A DNA stretch of 64,000 nt from Desulfurispirillum indicum S5 (GTDB taxonomy: Bacteria > Chrysiogenota > Chrysiogenetes > Chrysiogenales > Chrysiogenaceae), in contig NC_014836.1 of NCBI RefSeq assembly GCF_000177635.2, positions 1,376,001 to 1,440,000 of the forward strand. The letters are read 5' to 3'. Below, piece by piece: positions 56,029-61,467 of this stretch. Each line of letters starts with the position of its first letter. The stretch's first letter is position 1. A program made the translations under genes and the position numbers. The notes below the pieces were generated by a model. That model was not told the origin of the DNA, did no database searches, and worked only from the letters and a program-made list of their open reading frames with translations.

Positions 56029-56826
56029 TCAACCTTCCTTCTGACGAAGATTCTGCAGGGTGGCAAGCCAGTTCTGCACCGACTGTGGGTCTTTGGTGGA
56101 GAGCGTTAACAGGGTCGCGCCTGGGTTGATATGGGAGAGATCGTGGCGTACCCGATCCAGGGAAAAATCAAAATGGGGCAGCAGGTCCACCTTCGTGATG
56201 ATGATAATATCAGCATAGCGGTAGATGACCGGATACTTGGTTATCTTGTCATGACCTTCGGGAACCGAGAGCAGTACCACATTGGCGTGTGTGCCCAGTT
56301 CGAAGTTGGCAGGGCAGACCAGGTTGCCGACGTTTTCCACCACGACGTAATCGAGCTCATGCAGGGGGATATGGTCCATGCCATGGCCAACCATATGGGC
56401 GTCGAGATGGCACGCTGTGCCTGTGGTGATCTGGTAAGCCGGTATGCCAATAGCCTGCAGTCGCTGCGCGTCCTGGGAGGTTTCAAGGTCGCCCTCTATG
56501 ACCCCCAGACGAATCTGGGGAAAGGTTCCCGTGGCCTCAAGCAGACTTGTCTTACCACTTCCGGGGCTGCCCATGAGGTTGATAGCGGTAATGCCATGCT
56601 GGTCAAACCGCTTGCGATTGACCATGGCATACCGGTTGTTCTGATCCAGCAGGCTCGACATCACCTCAAGGGTTTTTGCTGAAGACAGGTGAGGGTTTTC
56701 CTCTAGGGTGCCATGGTGATGATGGTCACGCCCGTGGCTGTGGCCATGTTCGTGAGAATGAGAGTGAGAATGACTGTGGTCATGGTGCTGTTGGCCTGAT
56801 GCCGGGCAGCCGCAATTCGTACACAT
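56029..56826 (-). CDS. hypB: Hydrogenase nickel-incorporation GTPase HypB
   Basis: The 265-residue GTPase inserts nickel into the [NiFe]-hydrogenase with HypA. The N-terminal CTNCGC high-affinity nickel motif is followed by a His-rich stretch (about residues 14-45) that probably stores nickel. GTP site GSPGSGKTSLLE and the switch-region ENVGNLVCPANF follow. The start at 56826 is fixed by CTNCGC and a GGGAG. The gene overlaps nothing but begins inside the hypF 3' end region. Confidence 0.96.
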   Translation of the reverse strand: MCTNCGCPASGQQHHDHSHSHSHSHEHGHSHGRDHHHHGTLEENPHLSSAKTLEVMSSLLDQNNRYAMVNRKRFDQHGITAINLMGSPGSGKTSLLEATGTFPQIRLGVIEGDLETSQDAQRLQAIGIPAYQITTGTACHLDAHMVGHGMDHIPLHELDYVVVENVGNLVCPANFELGTHANVVLLSVPEGHDKITKYPVIYRYADIIIITKVDLLPHFDFSLDRVRHDLSHINPGATLLTLSTKDPQSVQNWLATLQNLRQKEG

Positions 56827-56843
56827 GGAAAACTCCCGAATGA

Positions 56844-59114
56844 TTAGGATGATAGAAGAGCCGCGTATGCCTGCCCCGCCGCAATGGATGCATCGTTGGG
56901 AGGCAGAACGACCGGCATGTACAAGCGTTGGCCGGAACATTGAAAATACTCGTCCAGCAACTTGACCAGAACTCTGTTCTGAAACACTCCACCGGTGCAG
57001 ATGACAGGCAACTGAGGATGCTGCTGGCTGATCTGCTCGATGGTGTGCACCAGTGCGCGGAAAAAGACGCTGACCGACTGCCGCACATCGCTTCCCAGGA
57101 GTATATAGTTGAAGAGCTCACGGTAGTCAATTCTGTGGCCTGCCGCTGGCAGAGAAACCAGAGGCGGGTACGGTACTGAGGGGTCAAAAAGGGCTTCCAG
57201 AAGCAGTCCGGTCTGGCCTTCATAGTCGGCTTTCTGGCAGATGCCACACAGGCTGGCAACGGCGTCGAAGAGGCGCCCTACGGAGGTACTCAGCGGTGCG
57301 TTTACACCTTTTTGCCATGCACTGAGGAGAATCTGCAGTTCTGCGTCGCTGTAACTGCGCAGTGCGGGATGGTGGCGACAGGTTCGAAGCGCGTCTGGAC
57401 CATACATCTGCAGCAGGCAGGCCAGGGCGATGCGGCGGGGCTCGCGTACGGCGGCTTCACCACCAAGTAAGCGCAGTGGATGTATCGTATACAGGCGCTC
57501 ACAGGACGCACCATGCAGCAACAGAGTCTCGGCTCCCCAAAGGGTGTTATCAGTGCCATAGCCTGTGCCGTCCCACACAAAGGCCAGTGCGGGTTCATGC
57601 AGGCCGTGTTCCATCATGACCGCGAGGGCATGGGCGTGGTGGTGCTGTACGCCGTGGCAGTGTACGCCTTGCTGGAGCGCCCACTGCGTCGTCATATAAC
57701 GCGGATGTAGGTCGTGCTGCAGGCGCTCTGGCTCTGACTGATACAGCCGGCACAGAGTCTTCCTGGTTTCCGAGAAAAACTGCAGGGACTCCGGCGATTC
57801 AAGGTCACCGATGTGCGGGCTGACCACAAGCTGATCTTCGATGCCAAGGGCAATGGTGACTTTTTGTTGGGGCCCCGTTGCCAGCACGTGCTGGCGAAAT
57901 GAATGTTCAAGGGGAAAGCTGACAGGTGCATAGCCCCGGCCGCTTCTCAACATAAGCGGACGAGTGCCTGCAAAGGTCATGACGCTGTCATCACAGCCAT
58001 TGAGTATCGGGCGATCGTGATCAAGGGCAAATGCAAAACCACCACTGAGTCTGGCGTAGAGGTCATGAACATTCGTGATGATCGGTTCATCACTGATGTT
58101 GGCACTGGTGGCGACCACTGGGCGGTTGACCAGATGCAGCAGGAGGCGGTGCAGCGGTGTATAGGCAAGAAAGACTCCCAGCGTTGGAACACCCGGCGCG
58201 ACCAGTTCACTGAGGGGACGGTGGCGGGAGTGCGGCAGACGTTCCAGCAGGACAATGGGCGCACGATGACTTTCGAGGAGCTGCAATGCCGTTTCATCGC
58301 AGGGTGAATAGGATAACAGATGCTCACGGTCACGGAACATGACTGCCAGCGGCTTTCCGTAGCGGTGTTTGCGCTCGCGCAGCGACTCCACTGCCCGGTG
58401 ATTCGTTGCATCGCACAGCAGGTGAAAGCCGCCCAATCCCTTGACGGCGATTACGTTTCCCTGAAGTATTTCACGGGCTGCCAGGCGCACAGCATCGGTT
58501 TGCGTGGCAAGACACTGGCTTTGCTGGTTCAGGACACGCAGAGTTGGCCCGCAGTGAAAGCAGCTCACTGGTTGCGCATGGTAACGGCGGTCGACGGGAT
58601 CAGTATATTCCTGTCGGCAGTCATCACACATGGCAAAGGCTGCCATGGAGGTGTTGGGGCGATCATAGGGGATGTTGGCCATGATGGTATATCGCGGTCC
58701 GCAGTGGGTGCAGGTGATGAATGGGTACAGGTAGCGTCGATTCCGGGGGTCGAACATCTCCTGCAGGCACTCATGGCAAATGGCGAGATCCGGGCTGATG
58801 GATGTCAGGGGCGGCGCTGTTCCGTGACTTGCGTCAATGGTGAATGACTCTGGAAGATTACAGGGTGCTGTTATGGTTGCGGTGAGTGTCTCAATCCTGG
58901 AGACTCGCGGAGCTTCAGTGCGGATACGTTCACAGAAGACATTGATGTCATCGTTACTCCCACACACCTGTATTTCCACTCCGGCACTGTTGTTTCTGAC
59001 AGTGCCGGGCAAATTCATCTGGCGGGCGATTCGATAGACAAAGGGACGAAATCCAACACCCTGGACTATCCCGTTTATTTCGATGTGCCAGTAGAGCTTT
59101 TGCTTCGCGCTCAC
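56844..59114 (-). CDS. hypF: Carbamoyltransferase HypF
   Basis: The 756-residue protein activates carbamoyl phosphate and passes the carbamoyl to HypE. Domains in order: acylphosphatase (GIVQGVGFRPFVYR), two Cx2C-type zinc fingers (ICHECLQ...CTHCGP and CDDCRQ...CFHCGP at about 105-190), a YrdC-like domain (IAVKGLGGFHLLCDA) and the Kae1/HypF-type C-domain (HHHAHALAVMMEH). It starts with GTG at 59114, overlapping the xre stop (GTGA), and precedes hypB by 17 bp. Confidence 0.97.
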   Translation of the reverse strand: MSAKQKLYWHIEINGIVQGVGFRPFVYRIARQMNLPGTVRNNSAGVEIQVCGSNDDINVFCERIRTEAPRVSRIETLTATITAPCNLPESFTIDASHGTAPPLTSISPDLAICHECLQEMFDPRNRRYLYPFITCTHCGPRYTIMANIPYDRPNTSMAAFAMCDDCRQEYTDPVDRRYHAQPVSCFHCGPTLRVLNQQSQCLATQTDAVRLAAREILQGNVIAVKGLGGFHLLCDATNHRAVESLRERKHRYGKPLAVMFRDREHLLSYSPCDETALQLLESHRAPIVLLERLPHSRHRPLSELVAPGVPTLGVFLAYTPLHRLLLHLVNRPVVATSANISDEPIITNVHDLYARLSGGFAFALDHDRPILNGCDDSVMTFAGTRPLMLRSGRGYAPVSFPLEHSFRQHVLATGPQQKVTIALGIEDQLVVSPHIGDLESPESLQFFSETRKTLCRLYQSEPERLQHDLHPRYMTTQWALQQGVHCHGVQHHHAHALAVMMEHGLHEPALAFVWDGTGYGTDNTLWGAETLLLHGASCERLYTIHPLRLLGGEAAVREPRRIALACLLQMYGPDALRTCRHHPALRSYSDAELQILLSAWQKGVNAPLSTSVGRLFDAVASLCGICQKADYEGQTGLLLEALFDPSVPYPPLVSLPAAGHRIDYRELFNYILLGSDVRQSVSVFFRALVHTIEQISQQHPQLPVICTGGVFQNRVLVKLLDEYFQCSGQRLYMPVVLPPNDASIAAGQAYAALLSS

Positions 59115-59359
59115 TTGGGTTTGGAGTTCTCTTCAGAGTAATGGTCGTGGAACAGCAAAATATCTTCTGCCTTTACCACGCCAATGGTTGCCTGCTCAAT
59201 TGCCTGAGCCAGTTTTTTTGACGGGACGTGGGTGCCTCGCTCTATGCCACTGATATGGGCCCTGGAAACACCTATGCTTTTGGCGATATGTTCCTGGGTG
59301 AGGTCACGGAAAACCCGGTATTGATAAAGAGGGTGAATAGGTGATTTTTTTGAAGACAT
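59111..59359 (-). CDS. XRE-family HTH regulator leading the hyp operon
   Basis: This 82-residue protein is almost entirely a Cro/CI helix-turn-helix (LTQEHIAKSIGVSRAHISGIERG), with a short acidic/His tail (LLFHDHYSEENSK). It overlaps hypF by 4 bp as first gene of the operon, so it is likely an autoregulator of the hyp genes, perhaps binding the palindrome at 59425. No metal site is clear; the target remains inferred. Confidence 0.85.
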   Translation of the reverse strand: MSSKKSPIHPLYQYRVFRDLTQEHIAKSIGVSRAHISGIERGTHVPSKKLAQAIEQATIGVVKAEDILLFHDHYSEENSKPK

Positions 59360-59545: not shown

Positions 59546-60118
59546 TTACAGATGCTCCAGAAGGATTTTCACACCGATAGCGATGAGGATCGCCCCGCCC
59601 AGACGCTCGATATACTCTTCGCGCACACGACCGAAGCGATTGCCGATGTACACTCCTGCGAAGGAAAACGCAAAGGTGACAAGACCTATGATGAATACAG
59701 GAAACCAGATGGAAAGATTCAGCAAGGAGAAACTGACGCCAACAGCAAGGGCATCTATGCTGGTGGCGAAGGAGAGCAACAGGATGCGTCGCAGAGAGTG
59801 GGCGCGCTCTTCGCGGGCAATGGGGCAGTGCTGCGCCTCGCTGCCCAGCGAAAAGGACTCATATACCATTTTTGCGCCAACAAAGAGGAGAATGAAAAAG
59901 GCAATCCAATGGCCGTAACTGTTGACATAGTCGCGGAAGCCGACACCGGCAACATAGCCTGCCAGCGGCATCAGGGCCTGAAATACCGCGAAACAGAAGG
60001 CAACTTTCATGACATGATGTACGCGCAGGTTGCGGATGGTGCACCCGTTGACGATGGATACCGCAAAGGAATCCATGGCCAGCGCTATGGCAATGAGCAG
60101 GATCGCATACAAAGCCAT
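59546..60118 (-). CDS. mntP: Manganese efflux pump MntP
   Basis: The 190-residue inner-membrane protein has six helices and the two MntP Asp motifs ALAMDSFAVSI and ATSIDALAVGVSF, with the paired GAK and GVK loops. It exports Mn2+. It is the last of three genes; its ATG overlaps the glutathione synthetase stop by 1 bp and has GGAGG upstream. No yybP-ykoY riboswitch was seen, so control probably comes from the recombinase-led transcript. Confidence 0.93.
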   Translation of the reverse strand: MALYAILLIAIALAMDSFAVSIVNGCTIRNLRVHHVMKVAFCFAVFQALMPLAGYVAGVGFRDYVNSYGHWIAFFILLFVGAKMVYESFSLGSEAQHCPIAREERAHSLRRILLLSFATSIDALAVGVSFSLLNLSIWFPVFIIGLVTFAFSFAGVYIGNRFGRVREEYIERLGGAILIAIGVKILLEHL

Positions 60119-61467
60119 CAGGGATGCGCCTCCAGGGTTAAGGTATTCAGACAGGCGTAGCCTGAGCAGACGCCACCTTCGTTGTTGCTGGCCGCTTTGG
60201 TGCGCACCAGGTAGCCGATATCCCGGTTGATCAGCGTTGCGGTGCCATCATGGACCATCATGCCATAGCGCCCTGTTTCACTGATGCAAAGTTGATCTTC
60301 CGCGTTTCCATCGACAATCAGTCGAGCGGTGTGGGTGTGGGCGTGAATCTTCTCCATAAGCACATGGGCTTGTCTGCGCTTGTCGCTGAGAGCGTCCAGG
60401 GCAGGGGGAATATCATCTGCGTAGGTGTTATTCCCACCACCTTCGCGCTGTGGCTTCAGGACATAGTTCTGGGGAAAGCGCCTGACGTGATCTGTGATCG
60501 GCACACCCGACGGGTGGATTTCATCAAGGTGGTACATGGCTTTGGTGACCTGAAGCAGAGGTGCGATGGAGGTGGCATCCAGGTAGTTCCGAAGAAATTC
60601 GGGCTTTCCCAGTGCGCGCTGCGCAAGTTTTGTTCCCGCCAGGTGGGTAAAGATATCCGGTGTCCTGATGCAGTCGGCAGCTTCCAGCAGTTTGCGGCCA
60701 TCAATGGCCATCTGGCTGGGATAGTCCTCCGGAGTGTAACCGGAGCGGAAATAGGCCACGGCGACAGGTTTGCCCTGCACAAAAAGGTGGCCATTACGCA
60801 GGACGCCCTCGCGGGCTATTTCTGTCAGACTCAGGCGAACTACGGGTACGCTGAGGTGGCTCTCTATGGCGAACTGAATCAGGCGCTGATCAAAGATGTT
60901 TCGCTCATGGGGCTGCACGACGAAGAGTATGCAGGGGTCGGGGAGCCCCATTATGGCTAACGCGGCCTGAAAACCACTGCACAGCTCTGCCAGGGGTTCC
61001 TGGGGAAGGATAGCCGGCAGGTGTCCGAGTTTCGCCAGGTGAGAGTGCACCTGAGTCGCGCGCTGCATGAGGCCATGAAAGCTTGCCGAAATGGTATTGC
61101 ACTCCACCAGCTTTGGCCACAGAACACCTTCGTGTTCTTCCACCATAAAGTCATTGCGGAACATATGCAGGCTTGCCGGCTGGGTGGAAGACGCACTGCG
61201 GGCTATATCCAGGAGAATTGCCATAAACTCGTCGCCATCAGCAAGGGGAGTATGCATGTCCAGCAGACACTCATGATCCCGTGACAGATTATGGAGCAGC
61301 TGGTTGCAGACAGGTGTCAATGTCGTCATGGTGTGCTGCAGGTGCTGACTGATGGTGTAGGGGGAGACACTGAGGGGAGCGTGCCGCAGTGTTGCTTCAG
61401 GGGAGAGCTGCAGCAGCCCGTGGATGCATGCATACTCTATGGCCAGGGTATCTTTCTCGTTTATCAA
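60118..61467 (-). CDS. Glutathione synthetase of the eukaryotic type
   Basis: The 449-residue protein matches the eukaryotic glutathione synthetase family, not the bacterial GshB. VECNTISASFHGL at about 121-133, AVAYFRSGYTPEDYP near 236-250, LAGTKLAQRAL near 277-287, the ATP-grasp block VLKPQREGGGNN at 346-357 and RTKAASNNEGGVCSG near 412-426 follow the human enzyme in the same order. It would ligate gamma-glutamylcysteine and glycine with ATP. It starts with TTG (TTGA overlap with the recombinase stop). No gamma-glutamylcysteine ligase is nearby. A related ligase substrate cannot be excluded. Confidence 0.88.
   Translation of the reverse strand: MINEKDTLAIEYACIHGLLQLSPEATLRHAPLSVSPYTISQHLQHTMTTLTPVCNQLLHNLSRDHECLLDMHTPLADGDEFMAILLDIARSASSTQPASLHMFRNDFMVEEHEGVLWPKLVECNTISASFHGLMQRATQVHSHLAKLGHLPAILPQEPLAELCSGFQAALAIMGLPDPCILFVVQPHERNIFDQRLIQFAIESHLSVPVVRLSLTEIAREGVLRNGHLFVQGKPVAVAYFRSGYTPEDYPSQMAIDGRKLLEAADCIRTPDIFTHLAGTKLAQRALGKPEFLRNYLDATSIAPLLQVTKAMYHLDEIHPSGVPITDHVRRFPQNYVLKPQREGGGNNTYADDIPPALDALSDKRRQAHVLMEKIHAHTHTARLIVDGNAEDQLCISETGRYGMMVHDGTATLINRDIGYLVRTKAASNNEGGVCSGYACLNTLTLEAHP

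Follow-up and report, generated by a model that had tools for sequence, protein, structure and literature searches.

The bacterial glutathione synthetase GshB and the eukaryote-type glutathione synthetase (GS) are both ATP-grasp enzymes. A review assigns the genes gshA and gshB to prokaryotes and gsh1 and gsh2 to eukaryotes, with the synthetase step recruited from the ATP-grasp superfamily (PMC10295655). A literature search found no paper describing bacterial members of PF03917, the Pfam family of the eukaryote-type enzyme. The stretch of 64,000 nucleotides from Desulfurispirillum indicum S5 analysed here (the window), which is part of a genome of one contig (2,928,377 bases), carries such a gene. 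The GS gene and its neighbours are listed in Table 1.

Table 1. Features of the GS locus; positions are those of the window.
Feature	Position	Strand	Evidence
Eukaryote-type glutathione synthetase (GS), 449 aa	60118..61467	(-)	PF03917 + PF03199, TIGR01986, PDB matches, AlphaFold model, catalytic residues
Xer-type tyrosine recombinase, 303 aa	61464..62375	(-)	PF00589 + PF02899
mntP-like manganese efflux pump, 190 aa	59546..60118	(-)	PF02659, 173 bits
Small HTH protein after mntP	59111..59359	(-)	PF01381

The GS open reading frame consisted of 449 codons with a TTG start and AGGAAAGG upstream of the start. Membership was judged on two Pfam domains, and both scored above their gathering cut-offs across the full protein: PF03917 covered residues 9–445 (239 bits, 8.4e-71; cut-off 25) and PF03199 covered residues 179–277 (99 bits, 3.9e-28; cut-off 20.9). 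The model TIGR01986 (glut_syn_euk) matched over the full length with 321.2 bits (9.7e-96), 8.6 bits short of its equivalog cut-off of 329.8, and it was also matched by all 26 bacterial members tested. The best solved relatives by sequence were potato GS (5oes, 1.8e-62) and human GS (2hgs, 5.6e-61), followed by the soybean and yeast enzymes. The AlphaFold model had a pLDDT of 93.6 and a TM-score of 0.93 to human GS (2hgs).

Alignment with human GS showed identical residues at R125, D127, E144, N146, S149, S151, E214, N216, Q220, R267, Y270, K305, E425, R450 and K452, and the loop K364–N373 (KPQREGGGNN, including E368) was also kept identical. We take these residues to be those that bind Mg, ATP and gamma-Glu-Cys, as known from solved GS structures. 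The domains, the fold and the retained catalytic residues bear out the proposal of an earlier note, made from the sequence alone, that the gene encodes a full-length eukaryote-type GS. Two other assignments were rejected. The next-best fold families were glutathionylspermidine synthetase-like, with TM-scores of at most 0.58 (normalised by query length), and the protein had no Pfam match to these or to the YgiC/YjfC proteins; as for GshB (GSH-S_ATP, PF02955), Pfam and NCBIfam scans returned the eukaryotic family only. A search for a phage origin gave no match among 50,697 phage records.

The earlier note had seen no GshA nearby and raised the possibility of another gamma-glutamyl substrate. Search of the genome did not support this, since a canonical gshA was found at C1:1804230–1805339 (PF04262, 484 bits; TIGR01434, 451 bits, cut-off 393), 0.37 Mb from the GS gene. 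It lies in a glutaredoxin-gshA operon, in which the gene for a CPYC glutaredoxin directly precedes gshA with a gap of 1 bp. The pair was also present in both other genomes of the family (3/3), and glutaredoxin was not found in three comparison genomes. The search for gshA and gshB that the note had recommended gave nothing convincing for the GshB ATP domain in the three family genomes (best matches 14 bits, with one of 24 bits counting frame neighbours).

Within the phylum, PF03917 was found in 3 of the 51 genomes searched, all from one family, and PF04262 in exactly these three, with no match in the other 48; the three genomes represent three genera of one family, and the co-occurrence of GS and gshA counts as one evolutionary event. 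The Chrysiogenaceae comprise three genera at NCBI (Chrysiogenes, Desulfurispirillum and Desulfurispira). All three family genomes had the glyoxalase II domain HAGH_C, which was missing from the five comparison genomes searched in the phylum; among 14 controls it matched E. coli, Caulobacter and Synechococcus only. GS and gshA occur together and no convincing GshB was found, a pattern that would be expected of a complete glutathione system with a substitute for GshB.

A GCS2 gene at C1:1813037 of the same genome (G000) was rejected as a GshA partner, as it had weak YbdK-type matches only and stood in an operon with a RimK-like ligase. This operon (L016:12810–16940, about 1810809–1814939 on C1) lies 5–10 kb from gshA and encodes a C39-like protein, the RimK-like ligase, the GCS2-family ligase and a possible N-formylglutamate amidohydrolase; the first and last names are tentative, and neither of these two proteins had a model match. 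A related GCS2 gene was also seen near gshA in G002.

The gene very probably (about 0.85) encodes the working glutathione synthetase of the host, used in place of GshB and gained from a SAR324-like bacterial pool. This reading draws on the family assignment, the conservation of residues and fold, the presence of GshA, glutaredoxin and glyoxalase II (GloB) with no convincing GshB, and the tree placement given below; from these we infer catalytic activity, glycine as the acceptor, and the direction and time of transfer. GshA, from the glutaredoxin-gshA operon elsewhere in the genome, would couple glutamate and cysteine. GS, as an ATP-grasp enzyme, would activate gamma-Glu-Cys with ATP-Mg and then attach glycine, filling the step held by GshB in most bacteria, and the glutathione would be consumed by glutaredoxin and the glutathione-type glyoxalase II. 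The source of GS would have been the SAR324-like, bacterial part of the GS family and the recipient an ancestor of the host's small family; the gene would since have been kept at a single locus beside a chromosomal Xer gene.

In the acceptor loop, the window protein has a Cys-Ser pair where three of the four eukaryotic enzymes (human, potato and yeast) have Ala-Ala, which leaves some doubt about its specificity for glycine. The fourth, soybean homoglutathione synthetase, has Leu-Pro; this signature was missing from the window protein, which was not assigned to that enzyme. Glycine would be the likeliest acceptor, because Cys and Ser are both small. It is unlikely that this GS-family ligase instead makes a glutathione variant, in which gamma-Glu-Cys is extended by another amino acid (e.g., alanine, serine or beta-alanine). 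The departure from Ala-Ala, at a site that is Leu-Pro in the soybean enzyme, argues for such a product, as does the frequent Cys, Ser or Val, followed by Ala, at this position in bacterial enzymes with the KPQREGGG motif; however, the pocket would be of similar size, the residues R450 and K452 are kept, and a glutaredoxin and a glyoxalase II of glutathione-dependent type co-occur with the gene.

A phylogeny with eukaryotic and bacterial members, as the earlier note had suggested, was constructed from 68 rows (LG+C20, midpoint root), including four eukaryotic sequences and several long rows. The window protein formed a pair with L002, its homologue in G002 (100/100). The pair belonged to a clade of 31 rows (96/86) that included SAR324 and other bacteria, so that the window protein nested among bacterial, mainly SAR324, homologues. 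The four eukaryotes clustered with four gammaproteobacterial sequences, apart from this clade. The nearest rows stayed the same when five rows that were long or divergent (L003, those of UBP9 and L064) were left out. The AU test rejected joining the family with the four eukaryotes (p = 2.9e-44 with L003, the third family member, and 7.7e-5 without it), weakly rejected all KPQREGGG bacteria as a single clade (p = 0.037) and did not reject the eukaryotes as a single clade (p = 0.12).

GS identity across the three genera was 37–43%, with long branches, including that of L003, and forcing the three family sequences into a single clade was mildly disfavoured (p = 0.011). The placement of L003 was treated as fast evolution, because its branch is long and it shares the Xer neighbour; a separate replacement of GS in L003 is possible. 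Given the patchy distribution in the phylum, GS was gained once by the family or lost elsewhere. The earlier suggestion of acquisition holds in part: patchiness fits gain, or loss elsewhere, and direct acquisition from a eukaryote was not supported, as joining with the four eukaryotes sampled was rejected. A tentative view, at somewhat less than even odds, is that the 'eukaryotic' GS family is bacterial, old and diverse, that eukaryotes obtained their enzyme from it and that the window gene represents one of its bacterial lineages. This view draws on the clustering of the eukaryotes with the four gammaproteobacterial sequences and on the weak rejection of a single KPQREGGG clade, in a midpoint-rooted tree with four eukaryotes; transfer could have run either way.

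The recombinase gene lies upstream of GS in the same direction, and the overlaps that the earlier note had described were both confirmed: the TGA stop of the recombinase overlaps the TTG start of GS by 4 bp, and the mntP start at 60118 overlaps the GS stop by 1 bp. The recombinase scored 204 bits with XerC and 186 bits with XerD, both under the equivalog cut-offs. An Xer orthologue stands directly before GS in L002 and L003 (55–67% identity), so that the pair is kept in three genera. A second Xer-type gene was found 12 kb off in the genome of the window, and G001 has one 9 kb off. No tRNA was found in the 16–18 kb around the GS locus in any of the three family genomes, and the GC content across GS (0.54–0.57) was similar to that of the flank with mntP and hypF, with no anomaly of GS. 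The recombinase gene appears to be a chromosomal Xer gene whose neighbour has stayed in place, and not the integrase of an island, because the pair is kept, tRNA is lacking and GC is ordinary; the same observations speak against the transfer that the note had read from it.

The mntP gene is probably co-transcribed with GS. It follows GS in G000 and G002 only, and a convergent FtsZ-like ORF takes its place in L003; a dedicated metal function, which the note had drawn from mntP, was not upheld by a neighbour present in two of three genomes. In G002, too, mntP is followed by a copy of the small HTH protein (84% identity). Further along the same strand, after GS, mntP and the HTH gene, lie hypF and a gene for a GTPase that resembles HypB and has a His-rich N-terminus (56029–59114 in the window), the latter assigned by reading the protein sequence.

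Recent direct acquisition from a eukaryote, or arrival on a mobile element signalled by the recombinase, is very improbable. The eukaryotic name of the family and the overlapping tyrosine recombinase favour it, but the AU test rejects the eukaryotic grouping, the window protein sits within a supported bacterial clade, the recombinase-GS pair has persisted over three genera of diverged GS, and neither tRNA nor GC marks an insertion. Least credible of all is a vestigial or moonlighting GS in a cell that relies on gamma-Glu-Cys or another thiol: the fast evolution of GS in the family, as the long branches show, speaks for it, but the frame is open and the catalytic set near-complete in three genera (sole change S149A in L002), with strict co-occurrence of gshA and glutathione users.

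A scan of GTDB genomes showed that at least 212 bacterial stretches encode GS relatives, and the best 80 of the 212 were divided into groups by motif. Group I (KPQREGGG) comprised SAR324/Lambdaproteobacteria, MAGs of Deltaproteobacteria, some cyanobacteria, UBP9 and a few gammaproteobacteria. A strong gene of the gamma-glutamylcysteine ligase families PF04107 or PF04262 was present in 14 of 17 group I genomes outside the family. In L047, a GCS2 ligase (PF04107) ends about 4 bp before the GS start, and in L048 and L057 this position is taken by an ORF of equal length; the arrangement of L047 is a direct genomic link of two glutathione steps. G064 had a strong full GshB domain, G053 a match of partial strength (132 bits) and G058 a fragment of 55 residues; all remaining matches were weaker, some of them within far longer frames, and several group I genomes are MAGs, in which absences are soft.

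Among cyanobacteria, eukaryote-type GS was seen in Pleurocapsales, Symploca and Trichodesmium (L046, L051, L053, L054 and L055). GS may have replaced GshB in the genomes of L051 and L054, because the GshB-domain matches there were weak (46–60 bits). Three group I rows, probably the UBP9 homologues (L058, L060 and L063), had active-site changes including N216G. No match to PF04262, PF04107 or PF02955 was found in the UBP9 genomes of L058 and L060. The UBP9 homologues therefore probably differ in function.

Group II (KNQGEGGG) comprised Vibrionales, Shewanella and other Alteromonadales, Endozoicomonas, Erythrobacter, Aeromonas and enterobacterial plasmids, and the plasmid proteins are already named glutathione synthase at NCBI (e.g., WP_000105383.1). 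True GshB was present in all seven group II chromosomal hosts tested; since these hosts already own GshB, group II GS may make another product. The changes S149A, S151G and R367G likewise suggest a different substrate. The branch includes L067–L101 and the plasmids L013, L015, L109 and L110. At least 350 plasmid records, the majority from Escherichia and Salmonella and some with IS26 or IS4321, carry group II GS, and there it adjoins an arsR-family regulator and a permease, or ArsC. In some Vibrionaceae (L073, L077, L081, L095 and L097) the gene order was gshA-ABC-ABC-gss, with two SmdAB-like ABC half-transporters and a second gshA; the annotation of gshA and the ABC genes in these clusters was verified on L073. 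This order suggests that a thiol peptide is made and exported.

The existence of a bacterial clade with GshA, eukaryote-type GS, glutaredoxin and GloB but no convincing GshB suggests that bacteria can rely on an enzyme of the eukaryotic kind as their sole GS. Pipelines that seek GshB only would score such bacteria as unable to make glutathione. The case in the window is real but not exceptional, as many other bacteria also have eukaryote-type GS. Of greater interest is the bacterial family as a whole, with its divergent second branch on multidrug-resistance plasmids; it offers material for testing the origin of eukaryotic GS.

Compared with bacterial GshB (PF02951/PF02955), the window protein would carry out the same reaction, without a match to the GshB family. 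With eukaryotic GS (GSS/GSH2; human 2hgs, potato 5oes and yeast 1m0w) it shares a two-domain, full-length match at about 27–34% identity, TM-scores of 0.88–0.93 to the closed forms and the KPQREGGGNN loop; it is somewhat shorter, has Cys-Ser for Ala-Ala and scores just under the TIGR01986 cut-off. The KNQGEGGGHC type of plasmids and Vibrionales belongs to the same Pfam family at 25–28% identity to the window protein, but forms a separate clade (100/100) and differs from human and window GS by S149A, S151G, P365N, R367G and N373C. The bacterial KPQREGGG type lies on the same side of the tree as the window protein (32–42% identity), and most of its genomes lack a clear GshB and encode a gamma-glutamylcysteine ligase; the neighbours of GS in SAR324 differ from those in the window and often include an MreB-sized ORF (confirmed as MreB in L027).
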